A DNA stretch of 64,000 nucleotides from Agarophyton chilense (lineage: Eukaryota > Rhodophyta > Florideophyceae > Gracilariales > Gracilariaceae), in contig JARGXX010000068.1 of assembly GCA_030374765.1 (NCBI GenBank), forward strand, positions 434,001 through 498,000, written 5' to 3'. The notes beneath the pieces are model-generated. The model saw nothing but the letters and a program-made list of their open reading frames with translations. It was not told the DNA's origin and made no database searches. Position 1 is the stretch's first letter; each line of letters begins with the position of its first letter. A program made the translations under genes and the position numbers. Of the stretch, positions 20,757 to 64,000 are shown in pieces.

Positions 20757-20903
20757 TTTTGTTCTCCCGACTTAGAAAGAATATTTAGGTTTCGTCGTAC
20801 CTTCAAGGTTCACACGAAATTCCGAGAAGGATTAGACGCTCGTACACCTACTTGGTTTCAGGAAATCCCGCAAAGCTATACAGGATACCACCATTGGTCA
20901 CAA

Positions 20904-26995: not shown

Positions 26996-27821
26996 TTAAG
27001 AAGGACCTGTCGGTTTAGGAGCAATGGAATCAGGAGGACCCGTGTTATTGACCACCCACGGAGGAAAACTTGCAGAAATGCTAGGAGCCATCGACCTAGG
27101 AGGCAGCGAAGGAGCGTTAGCCCCGCCACTGGGGAGAGGAGTCGAAACCAAAAGAGGATGAACGAAAGGAACCGCCGGAGTGGGTTGCAAAACCGCAGGG
27201 TTCAAGTTAACACCTAGAAGGGGATCCGTCAAAGGATCAGATGGCGCAGCAGCAGAGACGCTTGCCAGATTGGCAACCTGACGGGTGGCCAGTTGGTACA
27301 TGTCCAACTAAAACTGATTCCGGAACTCACCAAGTTGGTTCAGCGCCTTCATGTATTGCGCATGGCGCGTTAGAAAACCTTCAAGGAGCGTTAATGCAGC
27401 AACCACGGAGATTGGCCCATCCCTCTGAAAGTTGGTGACGCAAGACTGGCGAATTCGAGCCAGCAAACCGACCACGGCCGGAGAATCCATCATAGGTTGA
27501 GGCGGAGGACGAGCAATACCCGCCAACAGAGATCGAACCGGACCAGCCACCTGCGAGGAGCTCGGTTGAGTAGGAGTCACACCCGTAGGGGTAGGCGACT
27601 TACGACCTTGAGGTAACGGCTCGGACGGAAAGGAACTAGCATAACGACCAACCGGTGTCTCCACAGTACCGTGATAAGGTTCGGGGCTCGCGGGAGCTTC
27701 ATGAACAGGAGGCTCCCCGGGATAATATTGGGCGTGGCGAGGCACAATCTCCCAACTTGCGGGATCAAAAGCCAAACAAGTCCTTATCATTGAACCCAGC
27801 ACAGGTGTACAACGAGTCCAA
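26996..27821 (-). pseudogene. element 1 antisense ORF (aORF), C-terminal part
   Basis: The minus-strand frame is open except for one TAG (27308-27310) and covers about 275 codons. It contains WEIVPRHAQYYP, which lines up with aORF blocks IPRRHVPDYYP (element 3), MPVGHPTGFI (element 4) and VPADHPRGYV (element 5). The N-terminal half is missing because the inverted LTR starts at 27822 within it. Pro/Ser-rich sequence forms the end, as in the other copies. Function is unknown. Confidence 0.65.
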
Positions 27822-28454
27822 TGTCGTACAATCACCTCTGGAGTATGCTACGGTCTTGCCTCGGGAGCGTAGTGACGCTCAACCGTAGGGAGCGTGTTGA
27901 CGCTCAGCCTTAGAAGGGAGACGTAGTAAACCTCGATGGTAACAGGGCACCACGAAAACCCGCAGGGGCAAACGGCGGGGCAACTAGCCTATACCGTGTA
28001 GGTGAACGATGGTAGGCGTCCATGCGCGGGAAAGCCTGTGTGGTAGTTGAGAAACAATGAACCAAAAGGTATAATCGTGACCCAAGTGGTGCCTATCTTT
28101 ATCAGATTAGGATGGGGGAGGTGCAGTTCTCTATATGCAGTGGACTGCACTCTCCAGATCACCCGGGAGGTGCCAGCAAGGCACGGTCTCTGACCTAGTG
28201 TCAAAGACCTGGCCAGCACTGGCTACAGTGCGAGGTGGCCACTCCACTACTGTACTAAAATAGATATAATTACCATTACAGGTACTAACAATTACTCAAC
28301 CAGAAGGTACATGTCAACAATACACGTGGCTGACAACACCTAGATGGTTGCTCGCCCGGAGCTACATGGCCGATGATCCCTCGCATCCATGACCTACAGG
28401 GTCAGTGTAGTATATTGACAACCTCAAGGTCAGACCTTCTGCCACTATACGACA
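27822..28454 (-). repeat. right LTR of element 1, inverted (633 bp)
   Basis: The reverse complement matches the left LTR over its whole length, from TGTCGTATAG (at 28454) to GTACGACA (at 27822), with the U3 side more diverged than the rest. The G-box is conserved. Its inner end abuts the broken aORF, and its outer end abuts gag of element 2. Confidence 0.85.
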
Positions 28455-36541: not shown

Positions 36542-36987
36542 TGTGAAGGAGCAATGATAACGGTTGAGCTCTGTAAGCCGCTGGGCCCTGAGATATCCTA
36601 CAGCGGACACGTGGACGGGTCGACTTCAGGTGGACTCACGTAGATTATTAGTTAATTTTAAGTAGTACAATAGATTAGCATTATAGTGCCAGGGAGATCC
36701 CAGCGCCTCGCCAGTACTATTTACTTGGCTCGAGTGACGCTGCTCCCTTAGAATAAGGTAGGCACCGTTAGGATACTAAATAACCCCTTTCGGTATATTA
36801 GTTCCACCAATTGGTCTTCAAGCCATTCTTTCCGTAGCTTCAACGTGTAGGAAAACGCAGAGAACTCCAGCCCATTTCACCAAGTACTCTGGGAGTGCCG
36901 CCGTCAAGGATTCGAACCTTAGGACCCGCTCTACCACGCTACCACCGGTCGAGACCCGTACGCTGACCCACCTGTCATTGCGTTACA
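36542..36987 (+). repeat. 5' LTR of element 3 (446 bp)
   Basis: It runs from TGTGAAGG to GCGTTACA. A G-box lies at 36608. The 71 bp at 36900-36970 are identical in both LTRs and contain a tRNA-like motif on the minus strand. Confidence 0.85.
36900..36970 (-). other. tRNA-like invariant block in the LTR of element 3 (copy 1)
   Basis: On the minus strand it contains a consensus Pol III B-box GGTTCGAATCC inside a 4-bp T-arm (AAGG/CCTT) and an A-box-like D-arm GTAGCGTGGTAGAGC about 10 nt before it. No anticodon arm fits between them. The same 71 bp recur unchanged at 45873-45943. Confidence 0.45.
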
Positions 36988-42400: not shown

Positions 42401-42936
42401 CCTACACCACCAAAGTCCCAGCCCCCTGGCCCAACGGAGTCGCCACGACCTCAGGTCGACGCTCAAGTCCCCACACCCCCTAAGGCAGTTCCAGCAGACT
42501 CGACTAGCCCACGGACCCGATGGTCACTGCCAATGACGATGAACCATCTCTTCAAACCGATTCCAATGGATTCGCCGCTCTGGACCACACTCTCCTGCCG
42601 AAAAATGAATACCAACCGGAGTATGTGATTGAGCGCATCATCTCTGCAGGTCGGGGACTAGATGGAACTATGCGCTACCGCGTCCGTTGGTTCGGCTACA
42701 CACCTGGGGAAGACACTTGGCAAGAGCCTCAAACTATTCCGGCTAGTTTTATCGCAAGCTATTGGCGCAGAACCGGCCGCACGGAGCGCAGCCTTCAGGA
42801 GGGGGCAACAATTGGTCCGAATAATCCCATAACGCCTCCCAAATCGCCTCCCGATACGACGGTTCGGCAGAGCCTGACGGTTCGTCGTAGCCCCTGCATC
42901 AGGGAACAAGGTAAGTCCTTCGGCTACACATTTTAG
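39454..42936 (+). pseudogene. element 3 pol
   Basis: The protease active site reads LETGTGPN (Asp to Glu). The protease-RT connection present in elements 1 and 4 is deleted near 39,745-39,770. RT: FCVDYRNLN, but TTLEANSGYW (Asp to Glu) and YLDG instead of YxDD, so two catalytic aspartates are gone. A TGA at 40235-40237 and later frameshifts break it. RNase H (TEKECLAIVWSVL), integrase (DRGIQFVSKFF, NGQAKRFNRTF) and a clear chromodomain (YVIERIISAGRG ... YRVRWFGYTPGEDTW) follow in pieces. All domains are in the standard chromovirus order. Confidence 0.75.
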
Positions 42937-43213
42937 GAAGACCTGAAACGCTCTCGAGGTTGGACGACGTCCCGGGGCACGCACGTTTGAGGTACAAGAG
43001 CGACCTTGGGAAAGCACAAGCATTATTTTATTCGACTAACTAGCAGAGGTATAACAGCCCTCACCATGACCTCAAGGTTCGGGGAAGCGCTCGGAACACC
43101 AACAGGACTCACTGGGGCGGCGCAGGAGTAACTTTGTCATCTTCATTGGAACCTGCAAGAGCGAAACCGGGACTAGGGTCACCGGAGGAGCCTACTGGAC
43201 CACTAGGACCGGC

Positions 43214-45075
43214 CTAAACGAGCCGAGCACGCTTCTTCGGCGGAGATTTCCCCGAGGAACTATGGTCACTATCGAAAGCCTCCCAATCACTCAAATTTAG
43301 ACCATACCGGTCATCCAAGTCGGCAGTCACCCTCTGGGACATCATCTGTGAATACTGCTGCAGGATATTGACCATGGCGATCTTCAGATCCTGACCCTGT
43401 GGGACAACCGCGGCGTAGCGCGCCGAGCGGCGCGCCCAGAAGCAAGCTTCCCGCAGGACTGTCTCAATGTCCATCGAGGCTGTAATACCGACGGTACGGC
43501 AGACATGGTGGAGATCCGAAGCCGCAGCCGTTACCTAAGCGGGAAAGTGTGGCAACGGAGAGGACGGAGAGATTTCGACGCCCCCAGTGGACGTTTGAGC
43601 CAGTGCATCACCTACAGAACGTCTGGCCTCGACAGTAACCTCTCCAGGAGGATTGTCCACCTGGGCGACGGGCGGCTCATAAGAAAGCTCATCCTGAGGA
43701 GCAGCGCACGGAGGAGATGGAGGAGGGGAAGCGGTCAGCAACAACACAACGGACCCGACCGGAGGATGAACGCCCTCGACGTGTAGGACAAAGGGATCTT
43801 TACGGAAGGATTCTCCATCGAACATACCAGCAGGAACCAACGGCGTGGCTTTCACATCAGGCTCAAAGCACAGAGGATCGAAACCAATGGCCTTCGGATA
43901 ATAATCGGGCACATGACGCCTCGGGATGTCCGATGGTTGATTTCTCAAAGGCTTGGCGGGACAGGCACGAGCGTCGTCCCGACCATGCGGATGTAGCGGA
44001 ATCGGCGTGAATGAGTCCGTATCGTGGTCATAGCAAAGGAACCCGGGAGCCTTGCCCTACTCCACCTGTAGGACATGATCCAAAAGGGCCTCAGTCTCCT
44101 CGACGTCGAACTGGGTCCCACGGACGATATTCTGGATGCCCCGGTTCCCTAGGAAACGGATCATGATGTCCGGGAGCGGGATTAGGCGACCTCGAGGACC
44201 GGATATGTTTTCATCGTACCACAACCTCCAATCCTCCGAAGGGACATTACCACGGATTCTGTACTTCGCGGTATCCAGGAAGGCCATAAGGGACATCACG
44301 CCGAACTCAACGAAGAGTACCTGCCAGGATAGCCACGACCTTCGGACATTGTCATCGCCCATGAGTTGGGAGGAGTTGTACACCACCACAGACGGCATGG
44401 GATCCAAAAGGAGCGGCGAGACACGCCAATACATGGCCCATTGGTTCCCATCCTCGTGGGGAAGCGAATGATATAACGGAAGACGTTTATCTGCACTCAT
44501 GTCGTGGAACTTCACCTGGTGCCACCAAAAGAAGAACCCCAGGGATTGTCGCAAACGACCATCGGGCTCGTGCATCTCGTTCCAATAGACCCTATTGGAC
44601 ATCCAAAATAGGCGGTCATACGGCGGCCAGAAGCACATAAGAGCCAAGAGGTTGTGACCCGCGGGAGGAAATCGCACATGAGGCGAGATGAAGTCCGTGT
44701 ATAGGTCCGAAAGAAGTTTGTTCTCCCTGAACTGGTATTCGGCTTCCTCCTCGCAGCGGAGGTATGGCATGTCCGCTTGGATAAGGATGCGACATCGCGT
44801 CGCCGAACGCGGATTCACAGGACGGCGCAACCATCGGTTACACCAAGAGACGCTGCGCGCGTTCTTGCTGCCCCTCCGGAAATCGGGTATCTTGGCAAAC
44901 CTTCGGGCGTCGAGATACATATGACAAAACCGTGGTATTCTTCCACAGAGGACGGGAGAATGGCATGACGCACTGCCCGCGGATTCCATTCGATGGTATG
45001 ATCATAGCGGTCCCCGGGATGTTCGTAAGCCACTTGGTATCCCGAGGAGGTCCTCGCTTTGTTGTTCGAAGCCAT
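43214..45075 (-). pseudogene. element 3 antisense ORF (aORF)
   Basis: ATG 45075 opens a minus-strand frame that shifts once near 44,850. It then continues in one frame to 43214 with stops only at 44057-44059 and 43532-43537, about 620 codons in total. Blocks shared with the other copies include AVRHAILPSSVEEYHG (compare AVRDDELIDSYVEDG), the WWS/WHQ region and IPRRHVPDYYP. The end is basic (KSPPKKRARLV), a possible nuclear-localisation signal. Function is unknown. The retained length despite decay implies that the ancestor was a real gene. Confidence 0.65.
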
Positions 45076-45514: not shown

Positions 45515-45960
45515 TGTGAAGAAGCGATGATAACGGTTGAGCTCTGTAAGCCACCGGGCCCTGAGGTATCTTACTGACGACACGTGGACCGGTCGACCTC
45601 AGGTGTACTCATGTAGATTATTAATATATTTTATTTAGTTTAATAGATTAGCATTACAGAACCAGGGAGATCCCAGCGCCTCGCCAGTACTATTTACTTG
45701 GCTCGAGTGACGCTTCTCCCTTAGAGTAAGGTAGGCACCGTTAGGATACTAAATAACCCTCTTTGGTATATTAGTTCCACCCTTTGGTCGTCAAGCCATC
45801 GTTCCCTTAGCTCCAACCTGTAGGAATACACAGTAAACGCCAGGCAATTGCACCAACTACTCTGGGAGTGCGGCCGTCAAGGATTCGAACCTTAGGACCC
45901 GCTCTACCACGCTACCACCGGTCGAGACCCGTACGCTGACCCAACAGTCATTGCGTTACA
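45515..45960 (+). repeat. 3' LTR of element 3 (446 bp)
   Basis: It has the same length and ends as the 5' copy (TGTGAAGA...GCGTTACA). The G-box is at 45581 and the invariant tRNA-like block at 45873-45943. Confidence 0.85.
45873..45943 (-). other. tRNA-like invariant block in the LTR of element 3 (copy 2)
   Basis: Identical over 71 bp to 36900-36970, although the preceding ~80 bp of the two LTRs differ at roughly one position in five. Confidence 0.45.
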
Positions 45961-46255: not shown

Positions 46256-47168
46256 TGTAGAGCAACGCCCAGTCAGGGGATACTTGAAGATGCAACTCAT
46301 AGAATGAGGATTGAACCCTCCGAGGGTTATGATTATGATCCCCTCTAAGGTGTGCTGAGGTGGCACTGTTTTCCGGTTATATTTCGCCTATAAGGGAAAA
46401 TTTGGATGGCCCATGGTTGGATTGGCCCCGTGATACACGTGGCTTAATTTGGCACCGATTTTTCGGATATTTGTTAGAACGTTGAATTTTTGGGCCCTGA
46501 CAATGGGATCTCCACGTGTATGGCCCTGAGCAGGTGTGCACTACTGTAGAGTTTAGTTAGTGGGCCCTACTTAGGGAGTTGAGATCTGACAGTCCGAGCT
46601 CAAAGTAAATGGTAACCAAGGTTGGTCTTCGATACCTTTAGAGGTTCTTCGTCGCCATCGTTTCGGCCTTACAACCTGGAACGGGCTCTGGTTAGCAACG
46701 CCTGCGTAGGGACACGACTCCACTTGGAGAGTGCCCACGTTTGGGTTCCGTGCAACCGCCCCCTTGGGACCGCTCAGACGACCTGCGTGCACGATACCCC
46801 GTGGGGGTTCTGCTTACTTGTTGCGTGCTTTTTGTGTTTCCTTTCGAGGACAGGTTTTCGCCCCTGTATTGGGTTTCTTTTGTTGTTTCGCCCCTTTTCT
46901 GGTTCTCGGGTCCGCTGCCTGTTAGTGCCCGACCCTCGCCCCGTTTTTCCTCTTCGCCGGATTTTCCCCATTCTTTGGGATACCCATACCCATTCCCGAT
47001 CCAACGGTTTCTACCCCTCACCTCCGTCGGTACTGCCGGAATCCCCCGTGGGAGTTACACCCCACACTACGGGTGGAACGGAGGGCTCTGTCTCTTAGTC
47101 TGCCTCCCCCAAGGAGCAAGGCTTCGAACACCTTGAGAGCACTTCCCGTCGCCGGGTTTTGCTCCACA
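46256..47168 (+). repeat. 5' LTR of element 4 (913 bp)
   Basis: It runs from TGTAGAGC to GCTCCACA, with 8-bp near-perfect terminal inverted repeats. G-boxes lie at 46436 and 46513. A 3' copy at 57139 matches. Confidence 0.85.
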
Positions 47169-47186: not shown

Positions 47187-47395
47187 AAGCCGTTCTCGGA
47201 CTTTTGGTTTGGTCATCCACGTGTTGGAATATCTCTTGGAAGAGGAAGCACCGTCGTGAAGATTTGTTGTAGTGGTCCCCTTTGGAAAGGGTGGAATTGG
47301 TTTTTATTTTTGTTTTGTGTTACGTCATCCGTTCTCCGGGAATCTCGTGATCGAATTTCATCGTTACCCCGAATCGTCGGTGTCGTGTCTGCAGC

Positions 47396-49426
47396 ATGTC
47401 GCCGCCTACCCGTGGTTCCAGGACTGGATCGAACCGTCAAGCGGATTCAGTGCTTACGGCCCGGCCTAGGTCGAGGAGCTCAATTCCCGAAGGTCGGAAC
47501 GATTCCGGTACCGATCCGGACACTCGGAGAGCACCCTCAGTGGTTTCAGGTCCTCGAGAGGTCGTGGCTGTGAGCCCAGCTCCAGTGGTGGAGACCCCCT
47601 CAGCAGCACCCCGAAGTCGGGCCGACCGTGAATTACAGCGCCTGGAGACTCGAATTGATATCGCCAACGCGGCTCACATCGAGCTCCTTCAGGAGGTTAC
47701 TACCCTCCGCCTCAAGGTGGAGGACGCCCAGGTGCGGGGAGTCGCCGATGACCTTCGTACCCTGAGGAGGGATGTGAACTCCTTTTTGGAAAGCTTTGGT
47801 ACCCCTGGGGTCTTTATCAAGGAGTACCGGAGCCTCGTGGAGGAACACCGCGTGCAAGCGGAATGCTTCCGAGCTCGGCTGGACACCCTCGAGGCCATTA
47901 TCCGTATGGACGGAGACGCAGAAGCCTCGAAGGATAAACCCGACGTTTCGGAAGACGAAGAACACCGCTCCGCTAAACGGGACTGCCGCAAGTCAAAGAA
48001 GAGGGTTCATCTCCAAGAGGATTTATCGGATTCCGATCCCAATCGCTCGTCATCGAGTTCGTCCTCCGAATCTTCGGATAGTGAAGATGAACGCCGGTCA
48101 TCCCGGGCGACTCGGTCGAAGGCTACTTACACCTCTCAAGGGGCAATCCGTACCCGGAAGAAGGGTAGGAAACACCTTGGATTAAGGGAGCTGAAGCCGA
48201 CGAATCCTCTCTATCGGAATCTGCTATCGTACCGCTATTACCGGTTGGATAACCCTTCGGGAGATCGAACATCCCGCGGAACGGGTAAGGTCAAGGACTA
48301 CATCAAAAGGCTAAGCATCACCCTACAGAAGAGGGAGTTCACAGGAACAGACCCAATTCTGGTGCTCGATTTCCTTGCGAGGTTCGTCCAGGAGGCTGAC
48401 ATCCTCGGTATGAGTGAAGCGCAAGCGTATCTTGCATTACCCTATTTCTTAAAGGGGATGGCTGAAGACCAGTTCAACTCCGTCCGTGGATCATCCCGAG
48501 CCTCGGAAGGGGGAGTCACGTGCTGGCCCGAAGCGGTGCAGTACCTCTTGAGGTCATACGCTACTGGAAATGCGATTCAGGAAGCAATCCTTGCATTAAG
48601 AGATACGCAGCAGAAGCCGATGGAAACCGAAACGGTGTATTCAACTCGCTTGAATAAAGCGTTTCACCGATGCGGCAATGTATTCCCCGCCTACGAGAGA
48701 TGCTCCATGTTTGTGGATGGTTTGGACCCCTCGATAAGGGCATTGGTTGCCCGACATCGGGAAGAGTAGCGCAAGCTGACCTACTTGGAACTGGTTCAGT
48801 ACGCCCAGGCTGAGGGGGATACTCTCCGTGCCCGGCAGAACCAAAAGAGTCGGCCGACACGTGCACTCCTCGCCGATGAAGGTAACTCGTCTTTGTCACT
48901 CGCAGGAGGCCCTGCCCCTGTGGGGGTCAATGATAACATTCACTTCATGGGAAGTAGCCCCGAATCTATGGGTACGTCTGAGTTGCCGTCGACATCCGCT
49001 CCGACTACGGATGAAGATCCTGCACTCTATACCCAAGGACGGAGGGTGCCAGCCGCATCGCTACCTTTTGCGAATACCGCTGCTCAGTTCTCTCGCCCCG
49101 GATGGAGGGATACAGCACCACGTCGCGTGGATTCACGTCCACAACCGAACCCGGCAGAGCTGATTTGCTATTTGTGTTACCTCCGTGGTCACAAAGCACC
49201 AGACTGCACATTTCTCCTGCGGGAGGGTTCACGAATTATCGCTCAGTACGAGGCTCTGACCCCTGAGGAGAAAGCTCGAGTCCCGAGTGGGTCCTATGAG
49301 GAACAAAGGATACTCCGAGCTCACCTTGCTGACAGGGATACAGAACTTGTACCCGCGAACGGGGAACAACCGGTCCCCTTCGAGGCAGCTGCACCGAATT
49401 CGGTGGGGTCCGCTTCGAAAAACTAA
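47396..49426 (+). pseudogene. element 4 gag (one in-frame TAG)
   Basis: ATG 47396 starts a 676-codon frame interrupted only by TAG 48767-48769. The N-terminal region has a predicted coiled coil (LQRLETRIDIANAAHIELLQ) and an acidic Ser-rich stretch. The Gag domain includes FTGTDPILVLDFLARFV and METETVYSTRLNKAFHRCG. After the stop the frame continues to a CCHC knuckle CYLCYLRGHKAPDC near 49168. The terminal TAA is preceded by TCG-AAA-AAC, and pol is in the -1 frame. Confidence 0.8.
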
Positions 49427-52400
49427 ACTTGGGAGTCTCCCCTGCGGGAGGGGCGTCTTCTAAGCCGGAGTTGAAGACGCCCGAGGCGCTCCAGCTTCGC
49501 TCCCCAGCTGTGACTATCCTTTCAAGGAGAACGGCTGACACCGACGTTAACTCGGGATACTTTAGTGTCCTCCGTCGCCCGTGGATACGGTCCCGTAATC
49601 TCCGTATTCCGGATCGAGTTATGGTAATGGCCAAGCGGAATTATAAAGTATTCGCCGACTTCGGCCTGTCCAACCAGTTTATGGTTCGTCAAATATCTGT
49701 CCTGGATACAGGAGCCGCTCCTAACCTAATTCATGTTGAATTGTTACCCCCGCTGCTCCGGGTTCAAGTTCGTACCGGTCCACGTTTGGATATCGTCGAT
49801 GCGAACAACCACCCGCTACGGACACCGGGTACAATTTCCCTCATGGTGAGGTTAGGCTCCTATCTCGTTCAGCTAGAGTTTATTGTATGCAAATCACTTG
49901 CAACACCAGTCATACTGGGTTGTGACTTTTGCGACCGCTTCGTGGAAGCCATCCGTCCTCGGAATAGAACTGTGGAACTCGAAGACGGGTCTACGATCCC
50001 AATCGTTCGTAAACCCTTACAGGGAGCAGCGCGAACACGCGTTCCTCTCCCTGTCGCACAGAAATCTGTGAAGAAGGACCAGGTGTCTACACGGGTAAAG
50101 GTTGCGAAGTCAGTGGCTATCCCGCCAGAAACCCAGGTTTGGGTCACAGTTGTTACCAAGCAAATTGGTGTGCATATGGTACAACCGAACCCGTCTCTGT
50201 ATACGCGGCGTCAACTCGCCCTTACGAATGGGGTTGTCTCCGTGGAACCGGATAAACCTTTCAAGGTTTTGGTAGCCAACTTTGGAAAGACAACGCAGTA
50301 TTTGGTCAAACACCAGATCCTGGGTTCTGTTCTTCCACACCCGCATGCGGTCGTACCTACAAAGATCTCTATCGCAGAGGTCCTTGGTGTGGCGGACCCT
50401 AAGGAGGGGGAGGACACTGCCGGAATCGCGGAAGAAAGTGAGCATACGACTGTAGCTCCACACGCCGAACACTTTAAACCTCAGGAGGTTACGGCCCCTA
50501 TCACAGGAGCAGACCAGACGGATCCTGTTCAGGAATTGGAAAAATGGGATCTCAACCATGTACCCGCATCTCATCGGGAGAAGCTGAGGCACATGCTTTG
50601 TGAATTTACCCCCATGCGGGATGGTTCCCTTGGAACTATTGGGATTACAGAACACCGCATCGACTTGTTACCGAACACTCGGCCTATTGCCCAACACCCT
50701 TACAGGTCTGGACCGAAAGCTCGGGAAGAGGAGAAATCTCAGGTGGAGAAGATGCTTAAAGCGGGCGTAATTGAACCTGCCCAGTCCGCTTGGGCCTCAC
50801 CCGTGGTGTTAGTTCCGAAACCGGATGGATCGTGGCGTTTCTGCATCGATTACAGACGCCTGAACGAGGTAACCATTAAGGATGTGTACCCGATCCCTCG
50901 GATGGACGAATACATCGACTCCCTTGGGAGCGCTACTGTTTTCTCTACCCTCGACGCCAATTCGGGCTACTGGCAAGTCCCTATTAGGGAGGAAGATCGA
51001 GACAAAACGGCTTTCGTGTGTCATCAAGGACTTTTCCGATTCCGGAGGATGCCTTTTGGGTTGACAAATGCTCCCGCAACGTTTCAACGGGCGATAGACA
51101 TTCTGTTGGCTCCCTTCAAGTGGAGGACGTGTCTAGTGTATTTAGACGACATTATTGTCTTCTCCAACAACCTGGATGACCATCTCGAACACGTCAGGGA
51201 CGTAATGAAGATACTCCACGACGCGGGAATCACCTTGAAACTCAAGAAGTGCGAGTTTTTCACCGATTCGGTTAAGTATCTGGGTCATATCATCCGTCCC
51301 GGACAGGTTCTAATCGATGAAGTGCGAGTGAAATCCTTGAAGGAAGCAAAACACCCGAAAAATCAAACGGAGTTGCGATCCTTCTTAGGTTTGTGTAACG
51401 TGTATCGCCGATTCGTCCTGAACTTTGCGAATATTGCCACCCCCCTCAACAGGCTCCTGGCGAAGGGACAACCAGTTGAACTGGAACCTTTTGGCGACGC
51501 GGAAGCGTCTGCCTTCACGGCACTGGTGAATGCCGTAACATCACCGCCAGTCTTGGCTCTACCCAATCCTGGGCTCTCTTACGAAGTGGACACCGATGCT
51601 AGTGCAAACCAAGTAGGGTTTGCACTGTTCCAATCCTTTGAGGATGGTGAACGTCACCCTATTGGGTACTGGTCACGTTCCCTGAATGTCCATGAAAGGA
51701 ACTACTCCGTCTCCGAGAAAGAATGTTTAGCCGTTGTGTGGGCCTTAGCTACACTTCGCCCCTATCTGATGGGTACTCGTTACAAAGTCCATACGGACCA
51801 CGCATGCTTGCGTTGGCTCCTGGAGATCTCCGAACCCTCGGGCCGCCTTATGCGCTGGCGTCTCCGACTGTCGGAATTCGACTTTGAGATCCTGTACAAG
51901 AAAGGGAAGCTGAACACTCAGGCTGATGCACTATCCCGCTTGGGAACCACAGCGGAAACGGAACCCTACGAGGACGATGACATCCCATGTTTTATGGTAT
52001 CGGACCTCGAGGGAGGAGCTCAACCGCTGACGGATGATGTTTGTGACGATATACTCGTCAACGAGAGTCTGGATTCGCCGACCGGCTCTTTTATACCTAT
52101 CTCTCCAGAGGAGATGATACGCGAGCAACAGCTCGACCCATTCTGTACACGGATTCGGGCTCGCTTCAACGGAAGATTTCAGTTACCTTTCGAGGACGAC
52201 AATCAGGGTTACCTAATCAGGACCGTTGGACCTCGCCCAAGGATAGTGGTGCCGCACACCCTACAACAGAGGGTATTACACCTCACTCACTATGTGAAGG
52301 TTGGCGCCCACCCCGAGGGAAGAAAACTGTACCTCACGTTGAGAAGGGACTTTTACTGGCCGGCAATGGCATTCGATTGTTACGCCGTCAGACGGGCCTG

Positions 52401-53961
52401 CGCCAATTGCGCCAAGAATGACGTCAAACTTCGGAAGCACTCTAAGAAGCTGACGCTGTTCCCGGCAGGGGCTCCACTCGAATTCGTGGCCATAGACATC
52501 CTAGGGGAGTTTATCAGGACGCCCCGAAGTCATCGGTATCTGCTTGTCATTTCTGACAGATTCTCTAAGCTAACGAGAACTGTGCCGCTGAAGCGGATCA
52601 CCGCCGCTACCGTCGCGCAAGCGTTCGTGACCCATTGGGTGTTCGTATACGGACCGCCGGTGCAGTTGTTATCCGACAACGGAGGGCAATTCGCATCAAA
52701 GTTCTTTCAGGATGTATGTCGAATCCTTGATGTAAGGAATTTATTTGTTACTACGTATCACCCTCAGGAGAATGGCCAGGTGGAGAGGTTTAACCGCACG
52801 ATACTCAACGCTTTGAGATCGTATGTTGCGGATCACCCCAAAAATTGGGACTTGTACACAGACGCTATCACGTATGCATAGAACACCCAGGTACATCGGG
52901 TTACATCTTTATCCCCATTCGAACTGGTACTGTCGAGGACACCGCCGCCGGTCGCCATCGAGGCTCAACCGACGCCGTCGACGTACCCGTCACCGGGATT
53001 GTACCGAGAAGCCTGGAAGGAGTGGCTTACGAAGATGGTGCCGATAGCCCGGAAAGCAATGGACAAAGCTCAACGCGCCTACAAGAAGGACTTTGACAAT
53101 CGGGTTCGCAAACCTCTACCTCAGGTAGAGCCCGACGACTTCGTCTTCCTTCGAAAGGAATACTACAATCCTGAAAAGGGACGTAGGCACAAGCTTTCGC
53201 CAATTGTAGACGGACCCTATCGCGTGGTTTCTGTAGACCCGGACACGGTGGTATTGGATATCGCTAACCGCCACGAACGGATCTCCAGGGACCGCATCAC
53301 ACGAGCGCTCAACCCAAATGTGGAAGTGGTGTCGGCACCGACGCCCTCCACAGGGGATGATTCAACGGAAGTTAACCCGTCAAGCGGAGATTCGAACACC
53401 CGCCCCGTTATACTTCCGCACCCGGAACGTGGTTTAACCGACCTACCGGAAACTTCGGATACTCCCGAACCTGGGCCCGCTCCCTCAAGGGCCCAGTCAA
53501 CGAACTCTTACAGAGTTACTCCCCCACCGGAGGTAATCAAGCCTCCTGGCTCTCCGCCTAAGGAGGGGGAGGAGGACTTAGTTCCTTCGCAGGAGGATGT
53601 TTTGGCGTCAGCCAGTCGCCCTAACAGGGAATCTAGTTCTCACAGTGAGACGGCGAGCCCGACCGAGCCGGCGACAGAGAAGTCACAACCCCAGCGTATG
53701 GGTAGCGACATCACCGCCGACCCAGCCGAGCACGACGTCAGAAAAGATGACGAAACCCCGCCTAGGGAGAGTCGTGTGGAGAACTCCGCACCCGGAACGC
53801 CTACAGAGCCGACGATCACCCGCCGCCGCGGACGAGACACTGAGGTGTCGCACACTCAAACCCCGCTTTCTTGGGAACGAGCTGTGTCAGAGGACCCGCA
53901 CGGGGAAGATCTCGACGACGAGGTTGACCAAATTTGGCTCTCCGTTATGGAATGGGAATAG
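49417..53961 (+). pseudogene. element 4 pol (PR-RT-RNase H-integrase, one in-frame TAG)
   Basis: pol is open in the -1 frame from at least 49417, overlapping the gag stop. Counting from 49429: protease VLDTGAAPN (Asp93); RT FCIDYRRLN (~471), STLDANSGYW and intact YLDD (~571); RNase H DTDAS (~720), EKECLAV, TDHACLRW, ADALSR; integrase HHCC finger (~950-1000); core with AIDILGEF (~1022), LLSDNGGQF (~1082) and NGQVERFNR (~1117). All catalytic residues are present. A TAG at 52879-52881 sits where element 5 has Tyr (TYAYNTQ). The same frame then continues through the integrase C-terminal domain to 53961. This is the best template for the ancestral polyprotein. Confidence 0.85.
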
Positions 53962-54510: not shown

Positions 54511-54801
54511 GTGTGTCTAGACCCTACGTTGACACCCTCAAGGGAACTAGAGCGTTCCAAGATGGAAGAGAAGCCCGAACAGGGAAAAGTGTACCCGCAG
54601 GAATTCGTTATCGATCGCATCGTGCGTCACATCTACACCTCCGAGGGAGAAGTCCACTACCAAGTCCGATGGTACGGATTCTCGCCTGATGAGGATATAG
54701 TGGAACCCATTGAGCACCTTCCGAGGTCTAAGGTTTTATCCTATCACCGACGCACTCGGGTAACCTTGCCTCCAAATCTGGATCGTGCCCAAGTCGGGTA
54801 A
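54511..54801 (+). pseudogene. element 4 chromodomain segment
   Basis: The frame, in the same phase as pol but separated by stops, contains FVIDRIVRHIYTSEGEVHYQ and VRWYGFSPDEDIVEP, a classic chromodomain, then PRSKVLSYHRRT. In element 5 the corresponding domain is joined to pol, so ~550 bp of extra sequence here have detached it. Chromodomains guide integration of chromoviruses toward modified histones. Confidence 0.75.
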
Positions 54802-55136: not shown

Positions 55137-55202
55137 TATGCAAATATCAGAAGTTTACTATTGTCGCCAAGCTATGGACTCTACAATTACCCGAAGGCGG
55201 AA

Positions 55203-57059
55203 CTACGGAAAGCCCGAGGAGGGACCCGCCCCACCGTTGGGATTCTGACCCTGATGGTACGCCGAGGCGAAAGCCAACATCTGGCTCACATCCGTCATAC
55301 CCGGGGGAATCGGAATGCCCGCGTTCACGAGGCCTTGTCGCACACTATCCGCTTGCGGAGTGGCAACCGGCGCCTGTGCAAGGGTGTTCACACCCCACCC
55401 GGGGGGAGCAGATGGACCGCCACCGGATGCATTCGCCGCCGCAGCTGAGGTCGTTCCCACTGGTTGGAAGGGTGCAGATGGCTCCACAGGGAGTACTCCA
55501 CTAGGAGCTGGCATGTCGTTATCCAACGCTGGATCGTGCAGGTCTACTGGAGGCTCGTACTCGTAATCGTCGGTATAAATGAACCCCGTCGGGTGTCCCA
55601 CCGGCATCGGTCGAGGCGAGTCCATCAGCGCCCGTGCTTGCGCCGCGCTGATGCAAACCCCTTCGAAGGGATTGTAATAGACCCAGTTACCGGAGCCCGG
55701 ATCGTACCGGCCAGGAGACCTGTCTCGCGCGGATCCTACCCCTGCGGGCTGATTTTCCACTGGAACTCGATACCATTGGGTTTTGTCGATCACGTCCAAG
55801 ATTGGATACAGGTCTTGCACGTTGCTGACCGAACCCAACGCTGGGACAAGGTCGATCTGACGCATGAAGGTCCGTAGCATCGGAGGAATATACCAGACAC
55901 GGAAATGGTCATGAGCATCCCAGAGGAGGTGCGCCGCTACGCGGGCTGCCCACTCGGCTGCAACGAGGGCCCAGTATCCCGAGTTCGGGTCGTGCATCAA
56001 ACGAGACCCGATATAGTAGATGCACGGGGGCAGTTCAGCAAAGCACCCTCGGGGGACCTCGACCTTACTCCACCAAGCTGGAAGGGGCACGAATCGCCCA
56101 ACCTTCGCCGTGTTACGGATACGCTCCAGTTCCATGTGAGGATATGGGACAAGGAACCCGAAACGGGAGCGCGAGCGGCGCTCGAAGCGCACGCGTCGAT
56201 CGAACCCATACTGGGTAAACTGCCGTTGAAGGTACCTGAATTCAGCCCGAAGGATGGGACGACTCCATTGGAGCATATCTTCTCGGAAAGGAAAACCCGG
56301 TCCGCGGAACTCGGCTTCGGGAAAGGCTGCCAGGTTATCCCCGTAGGAGACCTCACCGTACGTGCGGTAATAGGCGACATCGAACCCGTACTCCGGGGGA
56401 ACCAGATGGTCAAAGCGTGACCTCTCCAATCGCCGGTAGGCCAGAGCCGCCATCGCTGCGCGCGCCTTGTCCAGGGACTCCCCGCGACTGCGGTATAGAT
56501 ACTGAGGCTCTATGGCCACTCGCGCCCTCCAATCGGGAGAACGTACAACCTCGATAGGTAGGCCACCCGGCAATAAGCCGTCCTCCACGTAGGAGTCGAT
56601 GAGCTCATCGTCGCGAACCGCTGTCGGATGGAACCACGGAGCGCGGGAATATATCACCGGATCGGTAAGGGGACTCCACCTTCGAAAGGATTCGTTTGAG
56701 ATCCCATCTCTGGAGTTTGCTACCAAGGGCATCGCATGAGCGGAGTTCCACGCCACCGCGTTAATGTCCAAATCCTCCTGAGGATGTTGGTCGCTCGCCG
56801 AGGCAGAAGGTTCGGTACCTGACGGAGCCTCATCCAAACCGGAGAAATATCCACCCTGCTGGGGAGTTTCGTTATCCACCGGCGCGGAGGCCGACGGCCC
56901 CGAGAGTGGGTTGGTGACGTATGGGTTCATTCCCTTGAGAGGGTTGGTTGAGACTGCTGTTGCGAGAAGTTGCGTATCGCCGAAAGTCGGAGGAGTAGAA
57001 GAAAGTTGTACCGATGTGCCGGTTTTGTGGCGATCCTCAGAAGTGGTGAAGGACCCCAT
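55203..57059 (-). CDS. retrotransposon antisense ORF protein (aORF), intact copy
   Basis: The 618-residue protein is encoded on the strand opposite to gag-pol, between the chromodomain and the 3' LTR. The start ATG is 80 bp from the LTR. It is homologous to the ORFs at 58818-60611 (element 5) and 43214-45075 (element 3) and to the fragment at 26996. Shared blocks with element 5 include APWFHPTAVRD, YRTYGEVS, SRPILRAEFRYLQRQ, LPAWWS and RGCFAELPP. The first ~100 residues and the last ~120 are low-complexity (Pro/Ala/Gly/Ser). The core is rich in Trp, Tyr, Phe and Arg. No signal peptide, membrane segment, zinc finger or known catalytic motif is seen. A transcript would presumably start in the LTR. 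Function is unknown. Confidence 0.7.
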   Translation of the reverse strand: MGSFTTSEDRHKTGTSVQLSSTPPTFGDTQLLATAVSTNPLKGMNPYVTNPLSGPSASAPVDNETPQQGGYFSGLDEAPSGTEPSASASDQHPQEDLDINAVAWNSAHAMPLVANSRDGISNESFRRWSPLTDPVIYSRAPWFHPTAVRDDELIDSYVEDGLLPGGLPIEVVRSPDWRARVAIEPQYLYRSRGESLDKARAAMAALAYRRLERSRFDHLVPPEYGFDVAYYRTYGEVSYGDNLAAFPEAEFRGPGFPFREDMLQWSRPILRAEFRYLQRQFTQYGFDRRVRFERRSRSRFGFLVPYPHMELERIRNTAKVGRFVPLPAWWSKVEVPRGCFAELPPCIYYIGSRLMHDPNSGYWALVAAEWAARVAAHLLWDAHDHFRVWYIPPMLRTFMRQIDLVPALGSVSNVQDLYPILDVIDKTQWYRVPVENQPAGVGSARDRSPGRYDPGSGNWVYYNPFEGVCISAAQARALMDSPRPMPVGHPTGFIYTDDYEYEPPVDLHDPALDNDMPAPSGVLPVEPSAPFQPVGTTSAAAANASGGGPSAPPGWGVNTLAQAPVATPQADSVRQGLVNAGIPIPPGMTDVSQMLAFASAYHQGQNPNGGAGPSSGFP

Positions 57060-57125: not shown

Positions 57126-57138
57126 AAAGAAGGGGAGA
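57126..57138 (+). other. polypurine tract of element 4
   Basis: AAAGAAGGGGAGA immediately precedes the 3' LTR start TGTAGAGC. Confidence 0.65.
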
Positions 57139-57905
57139 TGTAGAGCAACGCCCAGTCAGGGGATACTTGAAGATGCAACTCATAGAATGAGGATTGAACC
57201 CTCCGAGGGTTATGATTATGATCCCCTCTAAGGTGTGCTGAGGTGGCACTGTTTTCTGGTTAGAATTCGCCTATGGCGTGGAGATTCGGATGGCCCATGG
57301 TTGGATTGGCTCCGTGATACACGTGGCTTAATTTGGCATCGATTTTTCGGATATTTGTTAGAACGTTGAATTTTTGGGCCCTGACAATGGGATCTCCACG
57401 TGTGTGGCCCTGACCAGGTGTGCACTACTGTAGAGTTTAGTTAGTGGGCCCTACTTAGGGAGTTGAGATCTGACAGTCCGAGCTCAAAGTAAATGGTAAC
57501 CAAGGTTGGTCTTCGATACCTTTAGAGGTTCTTCGTCGCCATCGTTTCGGCATTACAACCCGGAACGGGCTCTGGTTAGCAACGCCTGCGTAGGGACACG
57601 ACTCCACTTGGAGAGTGCCCACGTTTGGGTTCCGTGCAACCGCCCCCTTGGGACCGCTCAGACGACCTGCGTGCACGATACCCCGTGGGGGTTCTGCTTA
57701 CTTGTTGCGTGCTTTTTGTGTTTCCTTTCGAGGACAGGTTTTCGCCCCTGTATTGGGTTTCTTTTGTTGTTTCGCCCCTTTTCTGGTTCTCGGGTTCGGT
57801 GCCTGTTAGTGCCCGACCCTCGCCCCGTTTTTCCTCTTCGCCGGATTTTCCCCATTCTTTGGGATACCCATACCCATTCCCGATCCAACGGTTTCTACCC
57901 CTCAC
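57139..57905 (+). repeat. 3' LTR of element 4, cut by element 5
   Basis: It matches 46256 to about 47021 with few differences and stops after CCCCTCAC, where the TG end of the element 5 LTR begins. The remaining ~145 bp should lie beyond element 5, outside the window. Confidence 0.85.
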
Positions 57906-58770
57906 TGTAGGACAATGCCCCCAAGGGGGAAAACCTACGAAGACGTCCGGATCTTCCTCTCACGAGGTAACCGGCGCGGTAGAGCCCTCCCAGGGATCGG
58001 CGCGCAATGCCGGGTGTAAGCCGGAGCCGAACCGTCGTGACGGGCGCAGGGAGGCTGAAAAAAGCCGAGAATATCCGCCGAAGTGGTGCTTGCGTATCCT
58101 CTGAGGAGGCAAAACCCACGAGAGTGGCGAGCACGACAGGTGTCAGTGCGAGCCGCAAGAGCGGGAATTGCCCAATGAAGGGAAGGAAAAGGGAAGGAAA
58201 ATGGGAACGGAGGCAAGAGGGCGAGTTTGACCACGAGTCGCAAGAGGGGACTCGGGAATAGCCGGCAATGCCGGGTGTAGCAAACCGTATACACGGGCGG
58301 AACCACGAAAGTGGGAATAGATACCCAACACACGAAGGCTGCTTGGACGTCCAAGGGGGTTGGGAAGCCGTGCACCACGGGAAATCCCTCCGTAAGGAGT
58401 TGTATATCCGCGCAGGCGGTTCGACCCAGAGCCAAGATCTGGAAGACCAAGATCACCCTTGTTGGGGAGACTTTACTGGACCGGCGGCCGCGAGGCCGGC
58501 GGCCTAAGTACTGTAGTCACCGTAGAATAGAATAAATAAAGTCTATCCTAAATAGCTAAATGTCCGTCTAATAAAAGGGGCCAATCTGGCGGCCACGTGT
58601 CGTGCGGGCGCTGCAGCCACGTGTATGGCACCCGGTCCCGCCGGTGCATCACCGGCGTTCCGGCCATCACCGTGAAAACGGATTGCTCCTACTCATAACG
58701 AGGTTGCACGCCGGAGGCTCCGGAAAAAACTTAAGTCCCAAAAAACCTCCCTGGAGGACGTTGCTCTTCA
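57906..58770 (-). repeat. 3' LTR of element 5 (about 865 bp, inverted in the window)
   Basis: On the minus strand it begins TGAAGAGCAACGTCC (at 58770) and ends CCTACA (at 57906). Two G-boxes lie at 58594 and 58618. AATAAATAAA at about 58531 may be unrelated. Borders are inferred from TG/CA ends, the purine tract and the cut in element 4. Confidence 0.7.
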
Positions 58771-58817: not shown

Positions 58818-60611
58818 ATGGCAGCTCGTCATGATAAGAGCGCGTCCGACACCGGGTCTCCGGAAACCAACACACCTTCACCAAGGATCCCACGCACGCC
58901 CTCCGCATCCGATTCCAACCACAGCACACCAACACGCACCATGTCCAACCCCGACCGTCATAACACATCCGCGACTCCCGCCCTTGGCGGTTCCACCGGC
59001 TTCCGGTCCGCGCCCCACCCGGGGGATGTTACCAACCGAACTCCGGCCGTCAACCTCGCGTACGAAGACCGCCGTATTGGCGCCCGCTTTCGCGGACAGG
59101 CGGACCCACCGCAGTGGCCGACCTACGACGCCCTTGTGGGTGCAAATCCGAGAACTCGGCATGGCTCCGCGAGGTTGCGGTATGCGCCTTGGTTTTACCC
59201 ATTGGCTGTCCGCGACGAGGATTTGATCCAATCCTACACCGATAATTCGGAGATGCTCCCGGGCGACCTGCCCGGCGTGGTGACCCTGTCCTGGGATTGG
59301 CGTAATCGTATCGCCATCCCGGTACACCACATACTCCGCCGACGCGGTGAATCCTCTGCGGAGGCTCAAGCCGCGCTTGTGCAGGTCGCTTATCTCAGGC
59401 ACCATCGGGCGCCTTTCGAGTTCCCGATACCGCCAGAGGTCGAATTCGACGTCCACCTTTACCGCACTCGCGGGGAAATGTCGCACTGTGACCGTCTTAA
59501 CAGATTGGAAACCCTCGCTTGGAGGGGCACACCGATCGCTCGGCAAGAAGCCCTTTGCTGGGCACGACCGATTCTTCGGGCAGATTACCGCTACCAACCG
59601 CGGCAGTCGCGCTCGAACTTCCTTCAGAACTTCTTCCGCGATGAGCGGCGTTGGCGGGCCCGGACCGAGTATTTCGTACCGTACCAGAACACGGATATTG
59701 AGCGCATCGCGCCTGCTCACCGACGTGGTCGGTACGTCAGTCTCCCAGACTGGTGGTCCTCCTTGGAGGCGTGCTGGGGTTGCTTCGTTGAGCTGCCCCC
59801 AGTATTCACCTATGTAGGGTCGTCGTTCTTGAAAGATCCCCATTCGGGGTGGTGGTCCGTCGTGGTAAGCGAATGGGCCGTCCGCACTGCGGCTTTTATC
59901 CTCGCTGAGGCGTACGACCAATACCGATTGTGGTACGTGCCACCGGGTGTGCGGGCTGCGATCTGTCGTTTGGACATGCGCATCCCCCTCGGGGGCGAGG
60001 CGAACGAAGAAGAGATGCTGGGCCTCTTCGACTTTGTGGAGGGGGTCCAGTGGGATGAGGTCCCGCTGGAGAACTCCCAACGCATTCAACCGCGTCGCGG
60101 GTCTGGCCCCGGACTCGGGAGGAATACCGCGCTAGCGGGGGATTTCGTCTACTTCGACCCCTGGGAGTACCACGAGATCAGCCGCGAGAAAGCGGAAGCC
60201 AACCGGCATGGGCCGCGTGAAGTCCCGGCCGACCACCCGCGAGGGTATGTCGACTCGAGCGACTATTAACGCGACTATGCGGATGGTGACCTGATGGTCG
60301 ACAACGAACCGGAGGATCCGGGTTACGCTCCGATGGAGGATGACGGGTCCGGCGAGGCCGGTGAGGAGTCCGTTGAATACGGTGGTGCGGCTCCATCCGG
60401 GGCTGCTGATGCCGTGCGAACGGATTCCTATCCGACTCCATCGGTGGCGGGCCCGCCCGCAACCGTCGCTGGCGCGGAGCGGGGCGAGGTCATTGCGCGC
60501 TTCCTTCGGGAGGTGGGGCTTCGCCCTTCCGAGATCTCGGGTGATGTGGCCGCCATGCGGGATGCCTTAGCCAACCGCCTGGGCGGAGGTCCACCTCGTG
60601 CGGAGGAATGA
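58818..60611 (+). pseudogene. element 5 antisense ORF (aORF), one in-frame stop
   Basis: ATG 58818, 47 bp from the LTR, opens a 598-codon frame interrupted only by TAA 60267-60269 just after GYVDSSDY. The same frame then runs to TGA at 60609-60611. It aligns along its length with the intact 618-residue copy of element 4 (APWFYPLAVRD, YRTRGEMS, ARPILRADYRY, LPDWWS, GCFVELPP, VPADHPRGYV). In-frame sequence 5' of 58818 lies in the LTR and has no ATG. An AATAAA follows 60 bp after the stop. Unknown function; one mutation from intact. Confidence 0.7.
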
Positions 60612-60943: not shown

Positions 60944-63900
60944 TTATCCCTCTTGGGCGTTTACCAGCGTGGCTGGGAGTGCGGTTCCCACAAGGCGGTG
61001 GTATCGCATTACCGCAGAGCGCGGGAGGTGCTCGATGGGCTCCGGGGTGTCCCACTCCGGCCCGTATTCGTACCAGCGGGTCCGGTACTAGAGCACCCCG
61101 TGCCCATCGTAGCTATGTCCGACGATTCGGTCGAGGACGTACTCCTGCACGTAAACTTGCCGGCCTTGCCGGGTGGTGATAACCAGAGCCTCAGCGCCGC
61201 GTGGTGCTGGGCTCGTCGTCGCCTGTTCCGGGTCACCCGGTTTGTCATTCCGCTCTGCGGTTCTTGCCGGGTTGCCGAGGCTGCCGTACCGCTTCGCGGA
61301 AGTTGCCGGCGCGGCCGGGTTGTGTTTCCGCTGGGCGGTAGAGGCTTTCCTGAAGTCCGCTCTTACCGCGAGTTTGCGGGGGTCCTTCCGTCTTGGTGAC
61401 GGTTCGCCGGAGGCCTCCACTTGATTTGCGACATGCGGCGTTCCCATTGGTGGGCAGTTTCCGCTGTGCAGTGCGCCGCGGGCGGTGAGTGGTTCACCGT
61501 CCCGGCGGTCCGCCTCGGCGGGGTGGCTATCAGCCAATGACCGGGATGCCGGGTGCTCATTGGTCCGATCTCCCGCTCGGGTCACGTGACCTTGAGAACG
61601 GGTGGTCGGGCCGTCGCGGACGGTTGGCTCCGATTGTTCGTCAAGGGAGGCGGTTTTCGACTTGTCGTCGCGCCCCTTTTCCCCCATGGGGTTCGTACCG
61701 TTCTCAACGGAGTGGCTCGCTAGACCTGCTTGCGCAGCGCCCGCCGGAGTACCGGTATCGACCGAAACGCTCGGTGTGCGATCGCGAATGCGCGGGGAGC
61801 CCTTACTTGCTTCCACGCGATGCGGAGCGTCCGTAGGGTCTCGCTTCCCGGCTTCGGGTCTTCGAGCGCCTTGGTTCCCCTTGCGGGGTTGCGTGGCGGT
61901 CGGATTGACCGCCGCGTCCCGCGGGAGCGGAGTAACGTCCGGCGACGATGCTGGATGCCCGCTCGGGGGCCTTGCCCGGGGTGTCCGGTTAAACTTCCGT
62001 TGCGACGGCGATGCTTCCGCGATTGAGTGGGTCCCCTCCCCCTCCTTAGACGGAGCGACTGGTGATGGTGGGCTAACCGCATGGCGGGTATAAATACCGC
62101 TACGCGGCGCCCGTAAGGGTAGCTGGCCGCGAGGGCCAGGTGTTTCCGGCATTGCCGGTGGTTCCGATAAAGTCGGTATATCGGAGAGACCCCGTGAGGG
62201 GTGCGGTACCACGGCGGGGCGTGGTGCCACCGTTGTACCCGTGGTATCCGAGGCCGTTTCGACGGGGGCTGATGCGGTTTCCGCCTGCAGCGGTGGGGCG
62301 GCTACGATGCGGTCTTGTGAAAGACGTTCGTGGTCGCCGTTCTTGTCCACCACAACGGTGCCGGGGAGGCAGGACACGACCCGGAACGGACCTTCAGCGA
62401 CAGGCGAGAGCTTGTGACGCTTGTCGGTCCGGGGGTTGTAGTACTCCCGGCGAACGAACACGTAGGTTCCCGGCTTGGGCGGTGCCGGTAGTGGTCCGCG
62501 CAAGCGGTTATCAAAGTCCCGCTTGTAGGCGGCCTGGGTACGTTCCATGGACTTCCGGGCTACCGGTACGAGCTTGGTAATCCAGTTCTTCCACTTGAGG
62601 CGGTATTGGCCCACGGATGGGAAAGAGTTGACCCTGTGTTGGGGTTCGACCGCCACTGGCGGGGGTGTCCTGGAGAGCACAAGCTCGAAGGGAGTCAGAC
62701 CGGTTGTCCGGTGGACCTGCGTGTTGTAGGCGTAGGTGATAGCATCAGCATAAATGTTTCACTTCATTGGGTGATCGGATACGTAGGAGCGTAGCGACGC
62801 GAGTAGGGTGCGGTTGAAGCGTTCCACCTGCCCGTTTGTTTGCGGGTGGTAGGTGGTAGTAAACAGGTTCTTGACGTCGAGGATGCGGCAGACGTCCTGA
62901 AAGAACTTAGAGGCGAACTGCTTACCGTTATCGGATAGAACCTCTATCGGAGGGCCATAAACGAACGCCCAGTGCGTAACGAAGGCGTTCGCAACCGTGA
63001 AAGCGGTGATCTTCCGTAAAGGTACGGTGCGCACCAGCTTCGAAAAGCGGTCAGTGATAACCAAGAAGAACTTGTTTCCCCTGCGCGTCTTGAGTAGAGG
63101 CCCGAGAATGTCGATTGCGACAAACTCGAGGGGCGCCCTTGCGGGGAAAAGCTTCATCCGTTTGGAGTGCTTCCGGAGTTTCACCCGGTTCTTTGCGCAT
63201 TGGGTGCAGAACTGCACCGTAGCGTAGCAATCAACCGCCATAGCGGGCCAATAAAAGTCTCTTCGCAGGGTTAGATAAAGTTTTCTCCCACCGGAATGTC
63301 CCCCGAGGGTCGGGTAGTGTGAGAGGTGGAGCACCCTGGTTTGCAGGATGTGGGGGATCACGATCTGGGATCGGTGGTCCACCGTCCGGACGAGGTAACC
63401 GATGTCGTTTACCTCGAACGGGAGGTCCTCTCCACCGTTTAGGCGTGCCCGTATGCGCGTGCAGAACGGGTCGCCGAACTGTTCTCGGATCATCTCCTTG
63501 GTGGAGATGGGTACAAAGGTCCCGGGTACGGGTGTTTCATTCTCGCGCGCTGCGAGTAGCTCATCCATTTCCATGGTGTCTTCCCCGGTTTCGGGCCAAT
63601 CCGACTCCGTCGGTGTTTCCCCTTCCAAGGTAAAGCACGGGATCTTGTCGACCTCCGGGTCGGCAAGTGCTTCACCTGTCGTAGGTAATCGAGAGAGGGC
63701 GTCTGCTTTGGTGTTCTGGGCACCCTTCTTGTAGACGACCTCGAAGTCGAATTCCGCTAAGCGGAGGCGCCACCGCATTAAGCGGCCAGAAGGATCTGCG
63801 ATGTTCAGCAGCCACCTCAACGAGGCATGGTCCGTGTACACGGTGAAATGAACGCCCATGAGGTATGGGCGCAGAGTGGATAGCGCCCAGACCACTGCGA

Positions 63901-64000
63901 GGCACTCCTTCTCGGAGACCGAGTAGTTGCGCTCGTGGACGTTCAGCGTGCGGGACCAATAGCCAATTGGTTTGCGTTCCCCCTCGGGGGTGGTTTGGAA
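60944..64000 (-). pseudogene. element 5 pol (RNase H-integrase-chromodomain, partial)
   Basis: The frame enters from the right edge within RNase H (PIGYWSRTLNVHERNYSVSE, TDHASLRW, ADALSRL). It continues through the HHCC finger (HLSHYPTLGGHSGGRKLY, CTQCAKN) and the integrase core (AIDILGPL, LSDNGKQFASKFF, NGQVERFNRT). TGA 62759-62761 follows, most simply a Trp codon changed by one base. The same frame resumes with TYAYNTQVHRTTGLTPFELV, the integrase C-terminal domain, a long Pro/Arg-rich linker and the chromodomain YVLDRIVGHSYDG. A TAG at 61088-61090 splits the chromodomain, which continues as YRTRWYEYGPEWDTPEP to TAA 60944. Only two stops break ~1,010 codons. Confidence 0.82.

Follow-up and report, generated by a model that had tools for sequence, protein, structure and literature searches.

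An antisense accessory gene in chromodomain Ty3/gypsy elements of a red alga

Several Ty3/gypsy retrotransposons in a 64,000-nucleotide stretch of the genome of the red alga Agarophyton chilense (hereafter the window) carry a long reading frame on the strand opposite to gag and pol. This layout raises the question of whether these antisense ORFs (aORFs) encode a protein and, if so, how the protein might be expressed and what it might do. The genome searched comprises 79.8 Mb in 135 contigs. The best named match of the DNA ligase I encoded at 5404-7731 is the Gracilaria domingensis protein (87% identity, residues 370-770), which points to a red alga related to Gracilaria. According to passages of a report on Gracilaria genomes, that of G. 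chilensis measures 76 Mb and that of G. domingensis 78 Mb, and repeats make up 45.7-66.2% of the genomes described (PMC10388701).

We interpret the aORF as an ancient accessory gene that encodes a protein and is probably transcribed from a promoter on the antisense strand of the 3' LTR. It is very likely that the aORF is a protein-coding accessory gene of a red-algal group of chromodomain Ty3/gypsy elements, situated antisense between the chromodomain and the 3' LTR and kept in diverged families by purifying selection. The joint statement, that such a gene exists and that a promoter within the 3' LTR drives its antisense transcription, has somewhat better than even chances of being correct.

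Arrangement of the elements and their antisense frames

Four LTR families, A to D, are present in the window, and each corresponds to a Ty3/gypsy element with a chromodomain (Table 1). Element A extends from 46256 to 57904, and its orientation is fixed by the polypurine tract that directly precedes its 3' LTR. The Pfam domains of its pol follow the Ty3/gypsy order of reverse transcriptase (RT), RNase H and integrase. The gag region of this element has no Pfam match behind its name. No clear 5-bp target duplication flanks element A, and element B starts right where the 3' LTR of element A ends (57902-57910); the second LTR of element B is outside the window. Element C is probably older, because its LTRs are only 89% identical. 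The frames scanned in element D yielded RT and RNase H matches without an integrase core. A 3' LTR belonging to this element was not observed at the expected site, and an inverted LTR copy adjoins the cut end of aORF D. Positions 28411-32073 belong to a different Ty3/gypsy element with an aspartic protease and RT. No chromodomain or aORF match was found for this element over the span given.

Table 1. Coordinates of element features in the window. Genome match counts include the window copies and refer to the best candidates scored.
Feature	Position	Strand	Basis or remark
5' LTR, element D	20123..20758	+	LTR comparison within window
Chromodomain, element D, within 3' open frame of pol (25803-26864)	26652..26801	+	
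aORF D, C-terminal fragment (256 of 876 codons)	26999..27766	-	85% identity to L069; at least 150 genome matches
Inverted D LTR copy adjoining cut end of aORF D	27820..28454	-	92.9% inverted match to 20123-20758
5' LTR, element C	36542..36987	+	89% identity to 45515-45960
Chromodomain, element C	42622..42777	+	tblastn, E 2.3e-6
aORF C, broken (frameshift and stops)	43112..45075	-	67-78% identity to L048 open frame; at least 126 genome matches
3' LTR, element C	45515..45960	+	Pair of 36542..36987
5' LTR, element A	46256..47020	+	97.7% identity to 3' LTR (767 aligned bp); TG...CA termini
gag region, element A, two open frames	47351..49426	+	Placement; 28-33% identity to D/C counterpart
pol, element A: RT, RNase H, integrase	49333..53961	+	Pfam RVT_1, RT_RNaseH, Integrase_H2C2, rve
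Chromodomain, element A, past pol stop	54598..54750	+	tblastn with B and D chromodomain queries, E 1e-14 and 2e-5
aORF A, intact, 618 codons	55203..57059	-	At least 71 genome matches
Polypurine tract, element A, touching 3' LTR	57126..57138	+	AAAGAAGGGGAGA immediately 5' of TGTAGAGC
3' LTR, element A	57139..57904	+	ATG of aORF A 80 bp from LTR
3' LTR, element B (minus-strand element)	57906..58770	-	TG...CA termini by inspection; same LTR type upstream of aORF in 30/30 fetched B copies
aORF B, single in-frame stop at 60267-60269	58818..60611	+	At least 77 genome matches
Chromodomain, element B, stop-containing in window copy	60986..61141	-	
pol, element B, 3' part (remainder outside window)	61088..64000	-	61% identity to pol A, 672 aligned positions

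The chromodomain lies inside the pol frame in element D and, apart from the stop in the window copy, in element B. In element A it lies ~640 bp past the pol stop (53961-54750), and many chromodomain matches elsewhere in the genome, several of them beside A-family aORFs, occupy a 120-codon open frame. Because of this placement and the 120-codon frame, the family A chromodomain may be expressed by splicing, by frameshifting or separately. The strongest genomic chromodomain match (G000:C113:592415-592564, 66.7 bits) has no aORF of families A to D nearby among the matches listed.

The original prediction placed the aORF antisense to gag-pol, between pol and the 3' LTR, and this placement agrees with the polypurine tract of element A and with the features that flank the frame. 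The chromodomain is antiparallel to the aORF in all four window elements. Among 68 copies fetched from the genome (8 of A, 30 of B and 30 of C), the flank fetched upstream of the aORF contains an LTR of the same family in 67 (8/8, 30/30 and 29/30, respectively), and this LTR is oriented as in the family majority in 8/8, 29/30 and 27/29 cases. An antiparallel chromodomain follows the aORF stop in 55 of the 68 (A 8/8, B 30/30, C 17/30), a count that may be too low for C, whose loci were fetched with 1,500 bp flanks. The same arrangement of LTR and chromodomain is found around L069, the one full-length relative of aORF D that was read elsewhere in the genome, with an 876-codon open frame. This constant placement indicates that the aORF belongs to these elements. 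An ATG stands at position 1 in all copies whose alignment reaches that position (A 8/8, B 29/29, C 14/14), a condition that itself favours a match there.

The state of the individual frames is more varied than first described. A long antisense ORF had been reported in all four elements, with length and frame said to survive among them. A homologous ORF does occur in all four at the same position and orientation, but only that of element A is intact, as one open frame. The in-frame stop of aORF B had been overlooked. Likewise, 43214-45075 is not one ORF in the window copy of C: the ATG at 45075 is in a different frame from the remainder, with the break near 44932, and in-frame stops at 44057 and 43535 precede the stop at 43214. 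The window copy of D consists of C-terminal codons with one internal stop. Elsewhere in the genome, the frame of the C copy L048 stays open for 655 codons beginning at its ATG, and 42 of the 71 A matches listed are free of in-frame stops by hand count. Because the best-scoring copies were fetched, the sample favours intact frames.

Could such a frame be a coincidence of base composition or of codon bias in a sense gene? The region is GC-rich (55-58%), which lengthens chance ORFs. However, the longest open stretch over the aORF A region spans 644 codons, whereas 2000 Markov resamplings gave at most 410 (mean 170). Moreover, no sense ORF longer than 180 codons overlaps aORF A, which speaks against opposite-strand codon bias as the cause of its frame, an objection that the original prediction had itself raised. 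A chance ORF is rejected on these two grounds. The finding of a homologous protein in four families and in a protein from a public contig contradicts coincidence further for A and B, and we assign this explanation a negligible probability.

Relationships among the antisense proteins

The aORF proteins of A and B are 41-42% identical over 390-419 aligned positions, and C and D are remote homologues of these two, with 18-26% identity in the core. Profile comparisons with hhalign gave P values of 1.3e-10 for AB against D, 2.3e-10 for C against D and 1.3e-6 for AB against C, compared with 0.17-0.48 for reversed-sequence controls; these profiles have little depth (Neff 1.0-1.7). In a small set, pairwise BLAST joined D to A (E 5e-8), to B (2e-11) and to C (6e-16), and B to C (6e-5), with no direct link between A and C (E 0.08 and higher). 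Thus, the earlier statement that all four proteins are homologous holds, but the shared motif blocks cited for it are those of A and B and are not supported for C and D, which are far more divergent.

One relative was found outside this genome. This protein, P0002, is encoded on a public 21,947-base contig and shares 49% identity with aORF A across 91% of the A sequence. Its 75 listed matches in the genome, many of them at family A sites, reach just 49-52% identity, and its source is therefore probably another species. Profile searches, which had been proposed as a check on the original prediction, were run against Pfam, PHROGs, PDB and proteins and returned nothing beyond P0002. The protein profile search, like the other protein search, scored the best 8000 of 5.8e9 proteins by shared words and is of limited sensitivity. 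In Pfam, PHROGs and PDB no aORF relative rose above chance; the best PHROG and Pfam matches, to one member each, had chance-level E values of 0.22 and 0.32, respectively. A scan of viral contigs that is sensitive to close relatives only found no relative either.

Where they are resolved, the aORF and pol trees, both small, agree in how they group the families. In the tree of the aORF core, A pairs with P0002 and C with D (0.998). In that of the pol RNase H, A pairs with B (0.911) and, with the 28411-32073 element as outgroup, C with D (0.754). Raw pol identities do not put C closer to D (C-D 46%, A-C 49%). The aORF evolves faster than pol: in the parts compared, identity is 43% versus 68% for A-B and 22% versus 45% for A-D.

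These trees bear on the possibility that the aORF is a separate mobile or host gene that recombination has moved between LTR families, rather than an inherited part of the elements. The small size of the trees, and raw pol identities that leave C and D unresolved, give this idea some room. It is nevertheless very unlikely, given that the two trees agree as far as resolved and that the aORF keeps a constant position and orientation relative to the chromodomain and LTR in the families examined.

Selection on the antisense frame

The aORF frame is under purifying selection, most clearly in family C. Pooled pN/pS in the coding frame is 0.49 for A, 0.70 for B and 0.49 for C, and stops per copy in this frame number 0.25, 0.60 and 3.6, respectively, compared with 3-23 in the other frames. 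In four of the five non-coding frames the pooled ratio is 0.81-1.30. Frame -1 has ratios of 0.45 (A), 0.80 (B) and 0.57 (C), which are below or near those of the coding frame, together with ~20 stops per copy. This low ratio could be counted in favor of a coincidental frame; in our reading it arises because frame -1 shares silent positions with the coding frame. The coding-frame value for B is close to that of its opposite-strand frame -0 (0.81).

On the tree of family C, pN/pS is 0.387 on internal branches and 0.708 on terminal branches (Fisher p 1.3e-10). This is the pattern expected if live lineages are constrained while inserted copies decay. When the C branches are read in the five wrong frames, the ratios are 0.90-1.90 in four of them and 0.48 and 0.79 in frame -1. 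Internal and terminal branches do not differ in B (0.63 and 0.78, p 0.36) or in A (0.45 and 0.45, p 1.0). Between the A and B cores, pN is 0.41 and pS is 0.71, near saturation. Indels are multiples of three in 25 of 27 cases in B, which probably represent few independent events, and in just 6 of 22 in C.

These ratios, together with a frame retained in four families, are strong evidence for a protein-coding gene. The selection on the protein that had been proposed from the letters alone is thereby supported.

A different reading is that the functional product is an antisense RNA that pairs with element RNA and tunes its level or the copy number. The layout would yield convergent transcripts, and passages of one report discuss non-coding antisense transcripts of LTR elements in plants and insects (PMC7264820). 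However, the constraint tracks the codon positions of one frame, and amino acids are kept across families with saturated silent sites, which an RNA-only role does not predict. An antisense RNA alone is thus disfavored and seems quite improbable, though RNA and protein roles could coexist.

Expression, product and comparison with known systems

For the protein-coding gene that we favor, expression would probably be driven by an antisense promoter in the U3 region of the 3' LTR, at a distance of 47-440 bp or more from the start codon. The resulting mRNA would be separate from, and convergent with, the gag-pol RNA. The hexamer CACGTG occurs in all four LTR families (at 20250, 45581, 57320, 57397, 58594 and 58618, counting one LTR per family), although within the window these LTR families have no BLAST similarity to one another. 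Each of the six lies no more than ~260 bp from the U3 end that faces the aORF, and all of them read CCACGTGT on one strand, as do 10 of 10 when both LTR copies are counted; outside these LTRs, 4 of 19 CACGTG sites read so. The motif was spotted post hoc, and its conservation among element copies does not clearly exceed that of other CG-centred hexamers. The CACGTG sites are thus a good lead for the putative antisense promoter, not proof of it.

Other sites were also noted in the window. Three of the four CCACGTGT sites outside these LTRs cluster within 41 bp at 19581-19622, some 500 bp upstream of element D's 5' LTR and not within any delimited LTR. CACGTG sites of other context (not CCACGTGT) at 7912 and 7937 lie between divergent host genes for DNA ligase I (5404-7731) and an M50 protease.

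The five aORF proteins range from 581 to 876 residues and contain 44-68 arginines and 14-19 tryptophans. Proline, serine, glycine and alanine together account for 40-59% of the C-terminal 100 residues in every protein and, with the exception of C (25%), for 41-52% of the N-terminal 100, compared with 28-31% of the central part. Four of the five have a calculated pI under 7, and simple nuclear-signal patterns match one short basic run, in C. The aORF B copy at L012:1744-3534 has one lysine in 597 residues, where 9-11 are expected from base composition. Lysine avoidance was not upheld as a general trait: A has 6 versus 10-12 expected, but C and D are at expectation.

What might such a protein do? 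We tentatively propose that the arginine-rich product, with its conserved core of ~250 residues and tails rich in proline, serine, glycine and alanine, may regulate the element in trans. The step regulated would be, again tentatively, transcription, silencing or a nuclear step, rather than a structural or envelope role. A trans-acting regulator is preferred by analogy with proposals for plant and retroviral antisense genes.

Somewhat less probable, and on balance unlikely, is a structural or enzymatic protein, such as a second particle component, a packaging factor or a movement protein, possibly derived from a host gene. The divergence of the aORF (A-D identity 22-24%) is closer to that of gag (28-33% for A-D, shared part) than to that of pol (43%), as might suit such a role. 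An origin of the aORF from gag was rejected, since all six gag-aORF comparisons gave hhalign P values of 0.22-0.88, and this absence of gag similarity also argues against a structural role. In addition, the two protein searches, of limited sensitivity, found no cellular relative, and an antisense promoter of its own would be an unusual route to a particle protein.

An envelope-like protein would fit the location, because the site between pol and the 3' LTR is the env site, and D has a 19-residue stretch with a mean hydropathy of 2.04. A mean of 1.6 is often used as the cut-off for membrane segments. The best windows in A, B, C and P0002 fall below it (0.93-1.36), and the aORF is antisense to pol and the chromodomain, whereas env-like ORFs are in the sense direction. 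We regard an envelope role as most improbable.

The regulatory reading draws on comparison with the plant Retand lineage of Tat-type Ty3/gypsy elements (Grande, RIRE2 and Retand). Passages of two reports describe aORFs between pol and the 3' LTR in these elements, present in most copies and across distant species (PMC11963269, PMC7264820). The red-algal aORFs resemble them, as far as those passages describe them, in antisense orientation, in position between pol and the 3' LTR and in broad presence, the last as seen in the best-scoring copies fetched. Text in one of the reports states that 97% of Retand clusters encode TRP28, equivalent to PF04195, and that the carriers are non-chromovirus elements (PMC11963269). 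In contrast, the carriers described here have a chromodomain, and their host is a red alga. None of the seven aORFs scanned matched PF04195 at E values up to 10, in a sequence-profile search whose filters drop most matches above 0.1. A genome search for PF04195 also gave no match, but its controls were silent too. A relation to PF04195 is thus rejected at the sequence-profile level, in agreement with the initial failure to recognize any relation to plant aORFs. The red-algal aORF may work like those of Retand elements, yet it is not a member of that group.

The elements otherwise resemble chromoviruses in combining a pol that encodes RT, RNase H and integrase with a chromodomain. The family A chromodomain, past the pol stop, departs from the chromovirus layout, in which it is placed at the integrase C terminus. 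Chromoviruses of green and red algae are mentioned in an earlier report (PMC3605345). The terms "antisense" and "additional ORF" do not occur in a survey of plant LTR elements covering six chromovirus clades (PMC6317226), nor do "LTR" and "antisense" in a paper on Gracilaria sex chromosomes (PMC12502185). Our searches of open-licence PubMed Central papers turned up no earlier report of such an aORF in red algae.

Retroviral antisense genes, including HBZ of HTLV-1, APH-2 and HIV-1 ASP, share with the aORF the property of being protein genes on the antisense strand. The aORF, known here from its sequence, has no Pfam or PDB match to link it with them. In HTLV, according to two reports, an antisense promoter resides within the 3' LTR (PMC7264820, PMC10186651). 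If the red-algal aORF is expressed, antisense accessory genes are not peculiar to plant Retand elements and some retroviruses, and a red algal genome gains a so far unannotated protein family with hundreds of copies. Another protein at that location, apparently unrelated to the others, would then allow comparison of why such genes are antisense and why they lie there. There is a possibility, a little short of even, that red-algal chromoviruses independently evolved an antisense regulatory gene or acquired one from elsewhere, in which case the layout arose separately in these chromoviruses, in plant Retand elements and in HTLV-type retroviruses, with unrelated proteins. If so, these separate origins would indicate that having an antisense regulator under separate control has repeatedly been advantageous to LTR elements.
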